Of a DNA stretch of 10,038 bases, positions 3,600 through 8,692 are shown piece by piece (within the stretch, counting starts at the first letter, position 1; the number at the start of each line of letters is the position of its first letter). Origin of the DNA: Nitrososphaerales archaeon TH5896 (GTDB lineage Archaea; Thermoproteota; Nitrososphaeria; Nitrososphaerales; Nitrososphaeraceae); the NCBI GenBank assembly GCA_014523625.1, contig JAATVP010000011.1:1-10038 (forward strand), written 5' to 3'. A program made the translations under genes and the position numbers. A model generated the notes under the pieces. It searched no databases and was not told the origin of the DNA. It saw only the letters and a list, made by a program, of their open reading frames with translations.

Positions 3600-3755
3600 C
3601 TATGCTACACCAGCTGGTGCATGGCTCGATTCGCTATGTTCCATTTTCTTGTGGATATTCAATGTTTCTTCCGATTCAAAATCTTTCCCACAAATACTAC
3701 AAACAGTCTTCTTGTGTCCATGTCGAGATTCAGGAGTTCCTGCTGTGGAATACAC
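3600..3755 (-). CDS. Very small C2H2 zinc-finger protein
   Basis: A 51-residue open frame ending in TAG at 3602-3600. It contains one complete classical zinc finger: VCSICGKDF (18-26), then SEETLNIHKKMEHS (28-41). The spacing is C-x2-C-x3-F-x5-L-x2-H-x4-H, with Cys19, Cys22, Phe26, Leu32, His35 and His40, so every metal ligand and core residue is present. The C-terminus is SSHAPAGVA. A GTG at 3755 is the only standard start before the in-frame TAA eleven codons further upstream; a TATA-like CATATCTTTAA lies around 3790-3800 and a T-rich terminator follows the stop. Stand-alone single-finger proteins of this size are common in Nitrososphaeria and are generally assumed to bind nucleic acid or protein; the role here is unknown. 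The opposite strand also has an open frame (3602-3811) that matches nothing I recognise, and I treat it as a shadow. Doubt remains over the exact start. Confidence 0.72.
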   Translation of the reverse strand: MYSTAGTPESRHGHKKTVCSICGKDFESEETLNIHKKMEHSESSHAPAGVA

Positions 3756-4268: not shown

Positions 4269-4766
4269 TTATCGCTTCCCAGATGATTCCCTAACTGCGA
4301 GGCCATACTCAAGCTTCGTTTTTTTTCGCATATATGGAATAAGCCTATAGTGAATTGAGTAAACCCAGGTTCTGTGTTCGTAATCCTTCTTCAGGATATC
4401 TTTTATAATCAATGACACTAATCCGCCAGATAGCTTGGACACCGGAATGTCATTAATCTTACAAAATTCATTCCTTTTGCACTGGTATTCTTTAAGCGTA
4501 AAATAAGGACGATTTACTTGAATGATGAGAGGCCAAACTATATTCTCCCATACCAATCTTCGATAGTGAGTGGAGTGAGCATGCTTTCCTTTCTCCTTGG
4601 TTCGTGATCGCATCATTCGCAGGGGGGTAATAGGAAATGAAACACCAGAAGTTAATTTATTATTTTTGATTGACTTAGCCGATAACTTAGTATCTTCTGA
4701 AATTCTGACGAAAGTCACCTGATACATTTTGATTGACCAGCTCTTTAATGGTTGAGTTCGAGGCAC
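4269..4766 (-). CDS. Basic hypothetical protein, possibly DNA-binding
   Basis: I do not recognise this family with confidence. The longest form (GTG at 4766) has 165 residues. A TATA-like CTATATTATTTA at 4780-4769 would start transcription near 4750, which instead favours the internal ATG at 4727 (152 residues). The protein is strongly basic. The second half looks most protein-like: YFTLKEYQCKRNEFCKIND (88-106), PVSKLSGGLVSLIIKDILKK (108-127) and YSIHYRLIPYMRKKTKLEYG (136-155). The helix, short Gly-Gly turn and second helix followed by beta-like strands would suit a small winged-helix or other nucleic-acid-binding fold, but that is inference. The N-terminal third is low in recognisable pattern and may be poorly conserved or not translated. 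No clear terminator follows. It stands alone between the zinc-finger gene and the iron permease. Confidence 0.55.
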   Translation of the reverse strand: MPRTQPLKSWSIKMYQVTFVRISEDTKLSAKSIKNNKLTSGVSFPITPLRMMRSRTKEKGKHAHSTHYRRLVWENIVWPLIIQVNRPYFTLKEYQCKRNEFCKINDIPVSKLSGGLVSLIIKDILKKDYEHRTWVYSIHYRLIPYMRKKTKLEYGLAVRESSGKR

Positions 4767-4924: not shown

Positions 4925-7336
4925 TCATCCCTCTTTCTTTCCGTGTAAATCAGCCATAGATTTCCGTGCACTTTCAATAGCTTTCTGTCGCCGGGGCTTC
5001 AGGATCAATATATAGAGTGATCCAACAAGGTATATAGCGAGAAGGATAACTTGTGCAACAACTGATTCCAGAGTGGGGTGAATCCCTGTCATTGTTGCCA
5101 AATTAATATCCAACCTTGGAACTATGCCGAACAGAGGAGTAGTGGGAACCACCCCTAATTCTTGTAGCTCTCTAACTGCATTTCCCATGAATGCAATGGA
5201 CATATATGCCCCTATACCCATGGTTAAGGCAAAGAGTGCTCTTAGAGGCAACCTTTTCCCAAGTTTGTTGACCAAAATTGCCACTCCAATGATGACCGCC
5301 AGTCCAATGACCAGACCTGCTACAACATATAGTTCCATATACCTTGCAAAGGATAGCATCGCCTGGTAAAATAGGACGGTCTCAAAACCTTCTCTATATA
5401 CCGTGAAAAATGCGAGAGCCGTGAATACGATAACGCTGCCTGTCGTGGTGGCCTTCCAAACCTTTGCTTTAACAAATTCGATCCATTTCTTGGTTTCAAT
5501 CTTATTTAAGACCCAGAAGCTAACCCAGAAAAGAACTGCGACAGCCGAGAGGCCAGCTATAGCTTCTATCAGTTCTCTGTTTGCTCCTGATATTTCGATT
5601 ATATACTGTGCTATGAACCAGGTTGCAGCCGTAGCAGCCACTGCAATAAGAATTCCATAGTATACATGCTTCTTGAAATGGTTATTCCTGGATGCTTGCA
5701 AATATGTAAGAATCGCACCTATTATTAGGGCAGATTCCAGCCCTTCTCTAAATATAATGGAGAATGAAGTTGAGAAAGCAATTGCCGGGGCAACTATTCC
5801 CACTCCTGAGACTAGTCTCTCGGATTCATCTAATCCTCTCCTAACTTCTACGGTCTTCTCTTCGACTTCCTGCAATGGTACATGCTGCTGAAGCAAATTC
5901 CTTAATTCCGCAAACTTAATCTCCATTTCAAGTGTAAAATCTGGGTCTATTGGCCTAAGTGGAATTTCAACGATTTCATAGCTATCCAAATATGCAGACC
6001 GTGCAGTCAATAGCGCACCTTCATAATTCTGTCTTTCATAGAGCCTAAGCATCTCACTTAGTTTGAGTCTTATCTGATCTATGTTATCTCTCACTGATTG
6101 TTTTGCTGGATCATCTGCTTCTCCAATTTGTCGAATTTCTCCTGTATAAGTACCAAAGCCCTGCCTCAATCCTTGAATATTCGCTAATGATGATCCGGCA
6201 GTAGTTGCTGTAGCGTTTGAGTTCATTCGGTATTCAAGATCATTTCTTAGCAAGTCTTCAGCTTGATCCAGTTTACCCATGATATTTTGAATAAATACGA
6301 CAATCTCTTGTGGGGAACGTTCCTCCCTTATCATCTGACGAAGTTCTTCTCGCATCGCTATCTCAATGTCTACCATAAGGTCAGGGTCATGTTTTTCGAT
6401 AGGTGACTCTAGATATTCATAGTTATCTAGGTATGCCTTAATTGCTGCTGCATCTGCAGCATCATAGTCTCCGGCATTCACCGAGGCAATACTACTATTA
6501 AGTAGTTCCCTAATGGTGGAAAAGTACTTTGCCTGTTCGGATCCACTCTCACTGCCACCACTTAAATTTAGTTCCTCTGAAAAATCTCGTTCTATCGCAG
6601 AAGCAATACTTGCAACAGTATCAAATGGTATATTATTTTCGATTCCTTCTTGCATTTGACCATAGAAGGATCTAACTTCCTCCCGTCTCGGATCTTCAAA
6701 TGAATCTGCAACTTTTTCAAAATTTACCATTGAACTAATTACCAATCCCAATGCATTCTGACGGTTTAATGTGCCAGAGTCATCCTGGGTGGCAGAGGCA
6801 TTTAGCTGCTGGTATGATTGAATTGCATCTTCCAAAAGAACAGCTGAGGTTTGAAGAAAGAATCCCGAATCTTCAATAGACCCTTGTGTAGCAGTTGAGT
6901 TTGAGATCGTATTCAGCAAATTGTTTATTGTGACTACATCAGATCTTATATTGGATTTTGCTTCTTCCGGGCTCGTCGAAGCTCGAATTTTTATCGGAAG
7001 ATCAGTAAGCAGGCCTTCCAGACTCTTTGACGACGCTGGGTCTACCTCGCTTAATATAGGTTTTAAAACTGGGAATGTGACTGAATGAGGAATATAAGCA
7101 TGCTGGAATGCGGCTTCAATATCACCGTTACTTAAACTATATTCTGTAAGGTTAAGCTGAGTCCCAATTCTTTGTAGATTAATGAATACAATAAGTGGAT
7201 CTGTCGATTGCTGGCTATTAACTGGTTGCTGTGCAATTCCACTATTAATAAATGATAAAGATAAAATTAGATTAATTGCAGCAAAAATTAAAAGTGATAA
7301 GAAACAAGATTTTGTAAAGCGTTCGCTCAAACTCAT
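4925..7336 (-). CDS. FTR1-family iron permease with a large repeated ectodomain
   Basis: An 803-residue membrane protein. Residues 10-35 form a signal sequence or first anchor; about 36-510 is a helical extracytoplasmic region; 511-780 is the FTR1 permease with about seven membrane helices. Both iron-binding REGxE signatures are intact: REGLE (530-534) and REGFE (648-652), each inside a helix. FTR1 proteins import iron after oxidation by a partner ferroxidase (yeast Ftr1, bacterial EfeU); no ferroxidase gene is in the window. The ectodomain appears to hold four related units, about 49-145, 155-250, 271-366 and 415-508. The last two are clearest: AYLDNYEYLESPI...DPD...EELRQ and AYLDSYEIVEIPL...DPDFT...AELRN. 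All six N-x-S/T sequons lie in the ectodomain. The ATG is 3 nt from an iron-box operator and about 29 bp from a TATA box, fitting a leaderless, iron-repressed transcript. Confidence 0.9.
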   Translation of the reverse strand: MSLSERFTKSCFLSLLIFAAINLILSLSFINSGIAQQPVNSQQSTDPLIVFINLQRIGTQLNLTEYSLSNGDIEAAFQHAYIPHSVTFPVLKPILSEVDPASSKSLEGLLTDLPIKIRASTSPEEAKSNIRSDVVTINNLLNTISNSTATQGSIEDSGFFLQTSAVLLEDAIQSYQQLNASATQDDSGTLNRQNALGLVISSMVNFEKVADSFEDPRREEVRSFYGQMQEGIENNIPFDTVASIASAIERDFSEELNLSGGSESGSEQAKYFSTIRELLNSSIASVNAGDYDAADAAAIKAYLDNYEYLESPIEKHDPDLMVDIEIAMREELRQMIREERSPQEIVVFIQNIMGKLDQAEDLLRNDLEYRMNSNATATTAGSSLANIQGLRQGFGTYTGEIRQIGEADDPAKQSVRDNIDQIRLKLSEMLRLYERQNYEGALLTARSAYLDSYEIVEIPLRPIDPDFTLEMEIKFAELRNLLQQHVPLQEVEEKTVEVRRGLDESERLVSGVGIVAPAIAFSTSFSIIFREGLESALIIGAILTYLQASRNNHFKKHVYYGILIAVAATAATWFIAQYIIEISGANRELIEAIAGLSAVAVLFWVSFWVLNKIETKKWIEFVKAKVWKATTTGSVIVFTALAFFTVYREGFETVLFYQAMLSFARYMELYVVAGLVIGLAVIIGVAILVNKLGKRLPLRALFALTMGIGAYMSIAFMGNAVRELQELGVVPTTPLFGIVPRLDINLATMTGIHPTLESVVAQVILLAIYLVGSLYILILKPRRQKAIESARKSMADLHGKKEG

Positions 7337-7339
7337 CTA

Positions 7340-7353
7340 TTAGGCTAACCTAA
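7340..7353. promoter_or_regulatory. DtxR/IdeR-type iron box in front of the FTR1 gene
   Basis: TTAGGCTAACCTAA is an inverted repeat of the form TTAGG-N4-CCTAA and is identical to one 14-bp half of the 19-bp DtxR/IdeR consensus (TTAGGTTAGSCTAACCTAA with S = G). It ends 3 nt before the FTR1 ATG and covers the predicted start of transcription, so a bound metal-loaded repressor would block initiation. No regulator gene is in the window. Confidence 0.8.
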
Positions 7354-7359
7354 GAATCA

Positions 7360-7370
7360 CAAATAAATAG
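7360..7370 (-). promoter_or_regulatory. TATA box of the FTR1 gene
   Basis: CTATTTATTTG on the - strand is centred about 29 bp before the ATG at 7336. This predicts a transcript starting at or within a few bases of the start codon, inside the iron box. Confidence 0.55.
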
Positions 7371-7418
7371 ATTTCTCTTTCTAATTGTCAAAAGTGCTTG
7401 TTGTGAACAATGATACTG

Positions 7419-7427
7419 TTTAAATAT
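7419..7427 (+). promoter_or_regulatory. TATA box of the small-protein operon
   Basis: TTTAAATAT is centred about 34 bp before the ATG at 7457, giving a predicted transcript start near 7449. The two adjacent iron boxes begin at its right edge. Confidence 0.55.
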
Positions 7428-7454
7428 TAGGATATCCTAATTAGGAAAGTCTAA
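7427..7454. promoter_or_regulatory. Two adjacent iron-box operators before the small-protein operon
   Basis: A perfect palindrome TTAGGATATCCTAA (7427-7440) is followed without a gap by TTAGGAAAGTCTAA (7441-7454), which keeps nine of the ten arm positions of TTAGG-N4-CCTAA. Together they fill the space from the TATA box to 2 nt before the ATG at 7457. Their junction makes a further palindrome, CCTAATTAGG. Tandem binding of DtxR-family dimers and strong repression under iron-rich conditions is the natural inference. Confidence 0.75.
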
Positions 7455-7456
7455 CT

Positions 7457-7642
7457 ATGGAAAAGGCTTCTAAATTTCTCAAAAGTATTAATAAGAATGA
7501 AAAAATTGAAGGAACCGATTTACTAACCTACATTTGCGATAATACGGACGGGGTTTTGGACCCTTTGGACCAGATCACTTATGGCATGAACGAAGTTCTG
7601 GTTTCCTATGGCCAAGTAGTAGTATTGAAAGATGCACCCTGA
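7457..7642 (+). CDS. Small unknown protein, first gene of an iron-box-controlled pair
   Basis: A 61-residue protein that I do not recognise. The N-terminus is basic (EKASKFLKSINKNEK). The rest is acidic and looks like a compact fold: DLLTYICDNTDGV (21-33), DPLDQITYGMNEVLVSYGQ (35-53) and a strand-like VVVLKD. There is one cysteine and neither a membrane helix nor a signal sequence, so it should be cytoplasmic. The ATG lies 2 nt after tandem iron boxes and about 34 bp after a TATA box, so it is probably made when iron is low. The next gene starts 6 nt after its stop and is surely in the same mRNA. It is divergent from the FTR1 iron permease. The regulation suggests an iron-starvation role; nothing in the protein shows a mechanism. 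Confidence 0.75.
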   Translation: MEKASKFLKSINKNEKIEGTDLLTYICDNTDGVLDPLDQITYGMNEVLVSYGQVVVLKDAP

Positions 7643-7648
7643 CCAAGT

Positions 7649-7909
7649 ATGTCTCCACCAAACACTCCTGATAAGAACCCCATTGAGGAAGACAAAGCAG
7701 ATGAGGTGAAGGCATTAATATCTCGATATATGCTTCTAAAGATAGAACAAAGAAAGATCGAGAACAAGTTGAACGAAGTAATCAAATACTATGATTCGGA
7801 ATCCCTTCGGACCATTTTCGAGCCGATCGGTGATTCTATAATGGGAACTATTGGTTTGGAGCTTCCTCATAGGAAAAAGGAAAAGGATATTTCACCTGAG
7901 CACACATAA
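7649..7909 (+). CDS. Small coiled-coil unknown protein, second gene of the iron-box-controlled pair
   Basis: An 86-residue, highly charged protein of unknown family. The N-terminus is Pro/Asp/Glu-rich (2-18). Residues 19-50 form a strong amphipathic or coiled-coil helix (EVKALISRYMLLKIEQRKIENK, in pieces, then LNEVIKYYD). A second segment, SLRTIFEPIGDSIMGTIGLEL (52-72), could pack against it, and the tail is basic then acidic (PHRKKEKDISPEHT). It has no cysteines, no metal-ligand cluster and no membrane helix. It follows the 61-residue gene by 6 nt and shares its iron-box promoter, so co-expression under iron limitation is expected. A dimeric partner or adaptor protein is plausible from the coiled coil but not shown. 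Confidence 0.75.
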   Translation: MSPPNTPDKNPIEEDKADEVKALISRYMLLKIEQRKIENKLNEVIKYYDSESLRTIFEPIGDSIMGTIGLELPHRKKEKDISPEHT

Positions 7910-8140: not shown

Positions 8141-8154
8141 TTAGTTCGTACTAA
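8141..8154. promoter_or_regulatory. Iron-box-like palindrome upstream of the ferritin-like gene
   Basis: TTAGTTCGTACTAA has the same layout as the iron boxes near 7340-7454 (5-bp arms, 4-bp spacer, TTAG..CTAA) but with T/A in place of the inner G/C pair. It lies upstream of the likely TATA box (TTATTAAATA, 8167-8176), about 52 nt before the ATG. That is a position for activation rather than repression. Confidence 0.35.
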
Positions 8155-8206
8155 ATTGTTGAAAATTATTAAATAGGAGTTTATCCATATAGATATTGAA
8201 TATAAT

Positions 8207-8692
8207 ATGGGTAAAATGGGAAAAGAAATAGCCGGCTCCGGCGTAGAAGGCACAATAGAGATGCTCAAAACTGCGTATTCAGGAGAATTGTCGGCATTCC
8301 ATTATTTCTGGTACATTTCACAGAATATAGAAGGGCTAGGTGTATTGGAACAAAAGTTTTTTGAGGATCGAGCAGATGAGGAACTTGGACATGCAAAAAG
8401 AGTCTCTCTAAGGCTGATGCAGCTTGGGACAAACGCTAAAGACGACCCTTCATCGTGGGAACAGGACAGTGGACTGGGCAAACTTCAACCTTCAAGGTAT
8501 TTGACACTTCGCAGTGCTTTGGAAAAAGCATTGGAATTCGAAAGGAGTGTTATCAAGTTGTATAATGACCTTGCCAATAACGTTAAGGACAAAGATCACG
8601 GCACGTACCATCTAGCACTTGACCTTCTTGATGCAGAACTGGAAGACGAACAGACTATCGAGGATATTCTCGCGAAACTGGAAATCCGCTAA
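8207..8692 (+). CDS. Ferritin-like (bacterioferritin/Dps-like) four-helix protein
   Basis: A 161-residue protein of ferritin-like four-helix length. Helix A carries YSGELSAFHYFWY (24-36, Glu27), helix B FFEDRADEELGHAKRV (51-66) with the E-x-x-H pair Glu59/His62, helix C EKALEFERSVIKLYNDLA (106-123) with Glu110 or Glu112, and helix D LDLLDAELEDEQTIEDIL (138-154). These are the positions of the di-iron ferroxidase ligands in bacterioferritin and archaeal Dps-like proteins. In helix D the usual second E-x-x-H aligns as Glu148-x-x-Ile151, so one histidine ligand seems to be missing. Expected roles are iron storage or peroxide and iron detoxification in the cytoplasm; the altered site could reduce ferroxidase activity. 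It is a single gene with its own TATA (8167-8176) and a T8 run after it. The ATG at 8207 is the first start; an in-frame ATG follows three codons later. Confidence 0.82.
   Translation: MGKMGKEIAGSGVEGTIEMLKTAYSGELSAFHYFWYISQNIEGLGVLEQKFFEDRADEELGHAKRVSLRLMQLGTNAKDDPSSWEQDSGLGKLQPSRYLTLRSALEKALEFERSVIKLYNDLANNVKDKDHGTYHLALDLLDAELEDEQTIEDILAKLEIR

Follow-up and report, generated by a model that had tools for sequence, protein, structure and literature searches.

Putative 14-bp DtxR-type operators at a divergent FTR1 iron permease promoter in Nitrososphaeraceae

Introduction

Iron is limiting for many microbes. In archaea, metal uptake is controlled by DtxR-family regulators such as MDR1 in Archaeoglobus, Idr1 and Idr2 in Halobacterium, and IdeR in Thermoplasma. 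MDR1 blocks the recruitment of the polymerase. The regulons of archaeal DtxR-family regulators were reportedly compared by Leyn and Rodionov in 2015. For ammonia-oxidizing archaea, our literature searches, which mostly did not cover subscription journals, returned no paper describing an iron regulator.

The sequence TTAGG/CCTAA is the established DtxR/IdeR half-site (PMC10317159). For IdeR a 14-bp consensus, TTAGGNNNNCCTAA, has been proposed (PMC8464063). According to the passages of that study on which we draw, the affinity of IdeR is kept after a C-to-T change at position 1 of CCTAA, and specific binding is lost after a T-to-G change at position 3 (PMC8464063). Two questions are named as open in the parts of a 2023 review used here: the role of single-dimer sites and how IdeR activates genes (PMC10317159).

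Here we analyze a stretch of DNA, hereafter the window, from a soil ammonia-oxidizing archaeon, in which boxes of this kind lie between an iron permease gene and a run of small genes. The window is the whole of contig C98 (10,038 bp) in a draft genome of 2.74 Mb that consists of 277 contigs and is 92% complete.

Results

On the minus strand, positions 4925..7336 encode an FTR1 iron permease of 803 aa. The FTR1 domain (PF03239, E 4.1e-17, residues 525-704) is preceded by a long N-terminal part. Relatives of the protein in named records come mostly from Nitrososphaeraceae or Nitrososphaerales archaea. A gap of 120 bp separates the FTR1 start codon (ATG at 7336, minus strand) from that of a 61-aa ORF (ATG at 7457, plus strand; 7457..7642). 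The plus-strand run continues with an 86-aa ORF (7649..7909) and a ferritin-like gene of 161 aa (8207..8692; PF00210, E 4e-18). We call the first two genes the small operon. Neither protein could be assigned to a family, and the first has no Pfam match. Elsewhere in the window, a 165-aa ORF without Pfam match lies downstream of FTR1 (4269-4766, minus strand), and a similar ORF follows FTR1 in genomes G128 and G160. By eye, a C2H2 zinc-finger-like peptide can be read at 3605-3720 on the minus strand, opposite a listed 69-aa ORF.

The initial annotation placed three boxes of the form TTAGG-N4-CCTAA, or nearly so, in the 120-bp gap, each behind a TATA element. Both the boxes and the TATA-like elements are found where it put them, two boxes being exact and one carrying a single mismatch. 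Box A, the putative operator of the FTR1 promoter, is an exact match at 7340..7353 (TTAGGCTAACCTAA, on the minus strand TTAGGTTAGCCTAA) and ends 3 bp from the FTR1 start codon. Its TATA-like element, TATTTATT, occupies 7362..7369 and is read on the minus strand as AATAAATA; box A starts 16 bp downstream of the start of this element. On the other side, the TATA-like element of the small operon, TTTAAATA (7419..7426, plus strand), is invariant in four aligned loci and directly abuts box B1 (TTAGGATATCCTAA, 7427..7440), another exact match. B1 in turn abuts box B2 (TTAGGAAAGTCTAA, 7441..7454) head to tail with zero spacer, forming a pair of 28 bp. The one mismatch of B2 falls on position 1 of its CCTAA repeat. 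B2 would be expected to cover the transcription start of the small operon.

The two exact sites and the one-mismatch site match the 14-bp single-dimer form of the IdeR/DtxR operator. The classical 19-bp two-dimer form, TTAGGTTAGSCTAACCTAA, which has four overlapping CCTAA repeats, is not found here: box A fits 14 of its 19 positions, and its flanks (ATCTA before and GAATC after, on the plus strand) do not extend the match toward the longer operator. As judged from its letters, the putative operator is of the 14-bp single-dimer form and not of the 19-bp two-dimer form. Three other genomes from this genus (L052, L053, L055) have all boxes at the same positions, with single-base changes within the pair in L055. 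Box A and the pair are separated by sequence that has diverged. The three boxes are almost certainly operators.

Conservation extends well beyond the genus, as the annotation had expected for FTR1 orthologues. FTR1 has matches in 30 Nitrososphaeraceae genomes, and one best-match locus could be taken for each of 28. At least 200 bp of upstream sequence exists for 27 loci, the window included, and in all 27 an exact box lies no more than 300 bp ahead of FTR1 (best copy per genome; further copies are not all covered). Elsewhere in these loci, 127,144 positions hold 0 exact sites. A second set, drawn from named records, comprises 34 loci, 26 of them with upstream sequence. An exact box is present in 20 of the 26, where 0.58 boxes would be expected from the 17 sites in 229,712 other positions. 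Twelve of the 26 duplicate loci of the family set, which leaves 35 of 41 distinct loci with an exact box. The remaining six have none in the 300-bp range: in L057 and L083 the box is more distant, and L062, L070, L076 and L078 have no exact FTR1 box at all. The pair near FTR1 in L134 lies downstream of the gene, and we do not count it as an FTR1 target.

The position of the box relative to the promoter is also constrained. In the 35 distinct promoters, the box begins 13-23 bp past the start of a TATA-like element (the nearer fit where there are two). Archaeal transcription usually begins about 25-30 bp after the TATA element. Hence, the expected FTR1 start lies in or beside the box.

Outside the family the picture is mixed. 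In the Nitrosopumilaceae (f9), neither of two FTR1 loci has an exact box; L051, from the same family, has a one-mismatch site. We placed 12 further Nitrosopumilaceae slices by extrapolation from partial FTR1 matches and listed all sites whatever the start. Six of these slices hold a related site, in five cases 11 bp after the start of TTTAAATA, and the other six hold none. An earlier approach, which defined the promoters in this family by the longest ORF, gave a site in 1 of 14; the starts were doubtful in most slices, and the approach was replaced.

The number of sites carries no signal. With up to two mismatches allowed, the window holds 8 matches for 5.4 expected. As a control for larger samples we reversed the TTAGGN4CCTAA pattern. 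The 2.74-Mb genome contains 3 exact sites versus 5 for the control, and 58 versus 132 when one mismatch is allowed. Across 61 family genomes, 268 exact sites stand against 329 control sites, hence the boxes are fewer than the control. Three complete genomes of genus g5 hold 11, 9 and 9 exact sites, versus 4, 0 and 2 for the control. We therefore reject site number as evidence, since the totals for window, genome and family do not exceed chance or the reversed control. The signal above chance consists of placement, the abutting pair and conservation upstream of FTR1.

Placement is best seen in the three exact sites of the genome. Two of them are the boxes A and B1 in the FTR1 gap. The third belongs to another abutting pair, on contig C99, whose surroundings include a broken copy of dtxR and a gene with an FTR1 domain. 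All three are thus in iron-linked gaps, which speaks against the random scatter that the annotation had named as a refutation; of the 55 other one-mismatch sites, the check covers few. Among relatives, some exact sites adjoin no evident iron gene (for example L136, L137, L140 and L146), and these may reflect chance or another function. One such sequence, TTAGGTGCACCTAA, recurs in four g2 genomes (L136, L142, L147, L152) beside genes for a 122-aa protein without Pfam match and a phosphodiesterase; no iron link was seen there.

The abutting pair itself is a distinctive feature. Pairs of the 7427-7454 type, with up to two mismatches, occur in 36 of 61 family genomes, compared to 0 of 61 for the reversed control. 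The spacing between the members is 14 bp (abutting) or, in genus g2, 17 bp (a gap of 3 bp). The 48 distinct pairs have 47 mismatches in total, 37 of them at position 1 of CCTAA and a single one at position 3; since the pairs are related, a binomial estimate overstates their independence. Most position-1 changes are from C to A (27 of 37), an exchange that is not among the changes in the passages of PMC8464063 used here. The clustering at position 1 fits the tolerance described for actinobacterial IdeR, as far as the bare letters of the sites can tell.

The 86-aa gene is present in 14 of 61 family genomes from four genera, and in 13 of these a site with at most one mismatch lies shortly upstream of the small operon; in the remaining genome, G086, there is no such site. 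The 61-aa protein aligns in other genera at 51-68% identity. Ferritin is found at E 1e-57 or better in all 14 genomes with the 86-aa gene and in three more, one of them as a fragment. Because 14 of 14 genomes that carry the 86-aa gene also carry ferritin, the two small genes appear to travel with it. Among 80 listed relatives of the 86-aa protein there is no Pfam domain, and the given names read hypothetical protein. Our guess is that the small-operon proteins aid iron release or storage.

Ferritin has a site of its own. A variant box, TTAGTTCGTACTAA (8141..8154), with position 1 changed in both half-sites, lies 13 bp upstream of the TATA-like element of the ferritin promoter, ATTAAATA (8168..8175, plus strand), which is invariant in four aligned loci. 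The variant box is conserved in three other loci of the genus. Across genera the site takes different forms. Four g1 loci have TTAGTTYGTACTAA, G154 has TTAGTTTGTACTAA, and G083 and G086 have exact TTAGGN4CCTAA. Five g2 genomes carry TTAATYTGTACTAA, as two or three copies at intervals of 21 bp. Counted by eye, 13-14 bp lie between the end of the site and the TATA-like element in g1, G154, G083 and G086. Variant-box matches in eight genomes lie before ferritin in 16 of 20 cases, and the reversed control has 9 matches. The other four are found near a 171-aa ORF (L269), inside a 543-aa ORF (L270) and, on the other strand, in L279 and L283. No site was seen upstream of ferritin in L203, L205, L206 and the more divergent L208-L213. 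We infer that the variant box is read by the same protein as the canonical box. Mycobacterial bfrB offers a parallel, as four IdeR boxes upstream of this gene serve its activation (PMC10317159). By analogy, a site ahead of the ferritin TATA element could point to activation, a fair guess that is less secure than repression at the other promoters.

Boxes precede further genes in relatives. They are found before a second FTR1-like gene (L139, L154), in a divergent gap beside SufB (L138, L143, L145, L155; Pfam-tested for L143 only) and, in two genera, directly upstream of hydantoinase A (L175, L180, L184; named by resemblance to a C99 gene). The C99 hydantoinase A gene spans L007:4658-7258, and a one-mismatch site lies at C99:7278. 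A pair precedes a ZIP gene in L133 (G022). In several genera, an abutting or 3-bp-spaced pair precedes a gene for a 104-aa protein without Pfam match (L007:2775-3089 and orthologues), which is predicted to adopt an ArsR/SmtB winged-helix fold (Foldseek E 6.9e-4 to SmtB). In G128, hydantoinase A, the winged-helix gene, an FTR1-domain gene, the RNA element described below, ferritin, the small genes and FTR1 all lie within about 12 kb.

The box pair on C99 (L007, 1592-1619) follows the element TTAAATA. No ORF comes after it, but a conserved stretch of about 150 nt does (L007:1592-1768). The stretch occurs in the five genomes of genus g1, from which we built an RNA model. A search with this model under stricter filters matched 5 of 70 genomes, namely these five, and thus 0 of 65 other family genomes. 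A separate search of 22 loci gave 0 matches. It contains two invariant blocks and a 3' hairpin, and its folding energy has a z-score of -3.47. Only one base pair shows changes on both sides, and there is no Rfam match. A coding role was considered: each sequence contains short ORFs, but no frame is kept. From its sequence, the element is a candidate for an iron-regulated RNA.

Three observations concern its surroundings. A broken dtxR paralogue (L007:674-1125, with a frame break and an internal TAG) lies near the RNA candidate; a remnant exists in G163 (L285) and none is listed in the stretches from G128, G156 and G160. At L007:1961-2419, a separate gene encodes a 152-aa protein that resembles FTR1 residues 262-360 at 40% identity. 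In genus g5, the abutting pairs of L172, L182 and L185 lie more than 200 bp from the next ORF on the TATA side and give no match to the RNA model (R1).

The annotation called for a DtxR-family gene in the host genome, and such genes exist. PF02742 matches three places: an intact gene on C173 (159 aa), one on C184 (188 aa) and the broken copy on C99. The C173 protein matches PF01325 (E 2.4e-15) and PF02742 (E 1e-18), both above the curated cut-offs. In alignments with MntR chains, the positions that are Asp and Glu in MntR and in the C184 paralogue are Met and Cys in the C173 protein. We take a Met/Cys site to mark the iron type and an Asp/Glu site the manganese (MntR) type of DtxR protein. Because the genome has one Met/Cys-type and one MntR-type protein, the putative DtxR reader of the boxes can be narrowed to the former. 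The second metal site of DtxR is not plainly kept in the C173 protein. At 159 aa, compared to 226-230 aa for DtxR/IdeR chains, this protein is unlikely to have a third, SH3-like domain. The recognition helix reads P-S-V-[VI]-Q in six of six Met/Cys-type sequences, and by eye we equate its ends with Pro39 and Gln43 of IdeR. Contacts of Gln43 are not essential for IdeR binding in the passages of the S. erythraea study that we use (PMC8464063).

At E 0.001, a search with the C173 protein gives matches in 136 of the order's 151 genomes; the weaker matches are other DtxR proteins. FTR1 and a C173-type dtxR share a contig in 16 of the 26 family genomes for which both genes are listed, and lie within 6 kb of each other in 11 of the 26 (five at 150-177 bp). 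In four genomes of other families (G003, G020, G031, G011), 258-2709 bp separate a C173-type dtxR from a more distant match to FTR1. In genus g2 the C173-type dtxR comes after the winged-helix gene that a box pair precedes, and in G086 an exact box lies between ferritin and a divergently oriented dtxR paralogue. The 1500 bp upstream of the C173 dtxR contain no box, even when one mismatch is allowed. Since only 9 of 30 orthologue loci have an upstream box, autoregulation is not general.

Discussion

Judged by sequence comparison, the boxes very probably serve as operators for a DtxR-family regulator that responds to iron, and the C173 protein of 159 aa is its most likely identity. Conservation before FTR1, the abutting pair and placement make DtxR/IdeR-type boxes over a divergent iron promoter, as proposed at the outset, the best-supported reading.

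The other readings explain parts of the evidence. The boxes could instead be read by the winged-helix protein, acting as an autoregulated metal sensor of the ArsR/SmtB fold. Its gene follows a box pair in eleven genomes (G000, G007, G041, G049, G063, G079, G056, G083, G086, G151, G155), and its predicted fold matches SmtB. However, TTAGG/CCTAA is an established DtxR/IdeR half-site, the mismatch pattern fits IdeR tolerance, and boxed FTR1 genes also occur in genomes without a pair (G092, G098, G110, G143), where a DtxR gene adjoins FTR1. We consider a winged-helix reader improbable.

A response to manganese through the MntR-type C184 paralogue is less probable still. This protein has the Asp and Glu of MntR and adjoins a putative ZIP-like gene, and the boxed ZIP gene of G022 points in the same direction. 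Yet most of the targets that have a name belong to iron metabolism (FTR1, ferritin, SufB), and the protein linked to FTR1 is of the Met/Cys type. Least credible of all is that the boxes are general promoter elements or chance AT-rich palindromes. Raw counts that do not exceed the reversed control, and sites that hug TATA elements, are what such an origin would produce, but it leaves unexplained why the genome's few exact sites all fall in iron-linked gaps, why they are conserved upstream of FTR1 and why the control yields no abutting pair in 61 genomes.

A DtxR reader suggests the following mechanism. When iron is plentiful, an Fe(II)-loaded DtxR dimer would bind the 14-bp TTAGGN4CCTAA site. 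Box A would cover the expected transcription start of FTR1, and B1-B2 would occupy everything between the TATA element and the beginning of the operon for the 61-aa and 86-aa proteins. Bound boxes would block RNA polymerase and switch off both directions; iron shortage would open both. The position of the sites at the expected start suggests repression under iron plenty. The related site, which lies about 13 bp ahead of the TATA element of ferritin, may extend this control to iron storage, where the same protein could be an activator. We infer operator binding, iron dependence and repression from sequence, and the ferritin effect most of all.

A wider scheme is conceivable. One DtxR-type protein would repress from sites past the TATA element (FTR1, the small operon and an ArsR-fold co-regulator), activate ferritin from a site before it (in one genus from two or three copies at 21-bp intervals) and, in the genus of the window, control the roughly 150-nt element as a non-coding RNA made under iron starvation, an archaeal counterpart of RyhB. 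As a whole this scheme is speculative, and we think it rather unlikely. On either scale, the sites supply a testable cis-regulatory code. They also bear on both open IdeR questions, and in this archaeal family the single-dimer site appears to be the operator in ordinary use.

How does the system compare with known ones? The likeness to MDR1, Idr1/Idr2 and Thermoplasma IdeR is that of DtxR proteins controlling metal uptake in archaea. With the actinobacterial IdeR/DtxR regulon, in the parts of the review consulted, it shares the TTAGG/CCTAA half-sites and a box over the start of an iron-uptake gene, a start that is predicted here (PMC10317159). Boxes upstream of the ferritin promoter and Fe-S assembly genes among the targets are further likenesses in the same parts (PMC10317159). 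By its sequence, we take the system to be a DtxR iron regulon and thus of a known kind; a 14-bp site as the usual operator, abutting pairs and an RNA candidate are unusual. The usual actinobacterial operator is a 19-bp palindrome that holds two overlapping dimers. The archaeal form, in contrast, is a 14-bp site that stands alone, in an abutting 28-bp pair or in a pair with a 3-bp gap. Its closest counterpart is the single-dimer IdeR site of Saccharopolyspora erythraea, whose 14-bp consensus for the half sites, as given in the passages used here, is letter-identical to the motif of this locus (PMC8464063). As the review presents them in those parts, the S. erythraea sites were new, with their wider occurrence and role left open (PMC10317159), whereas here such sites recur at several genes across a family.
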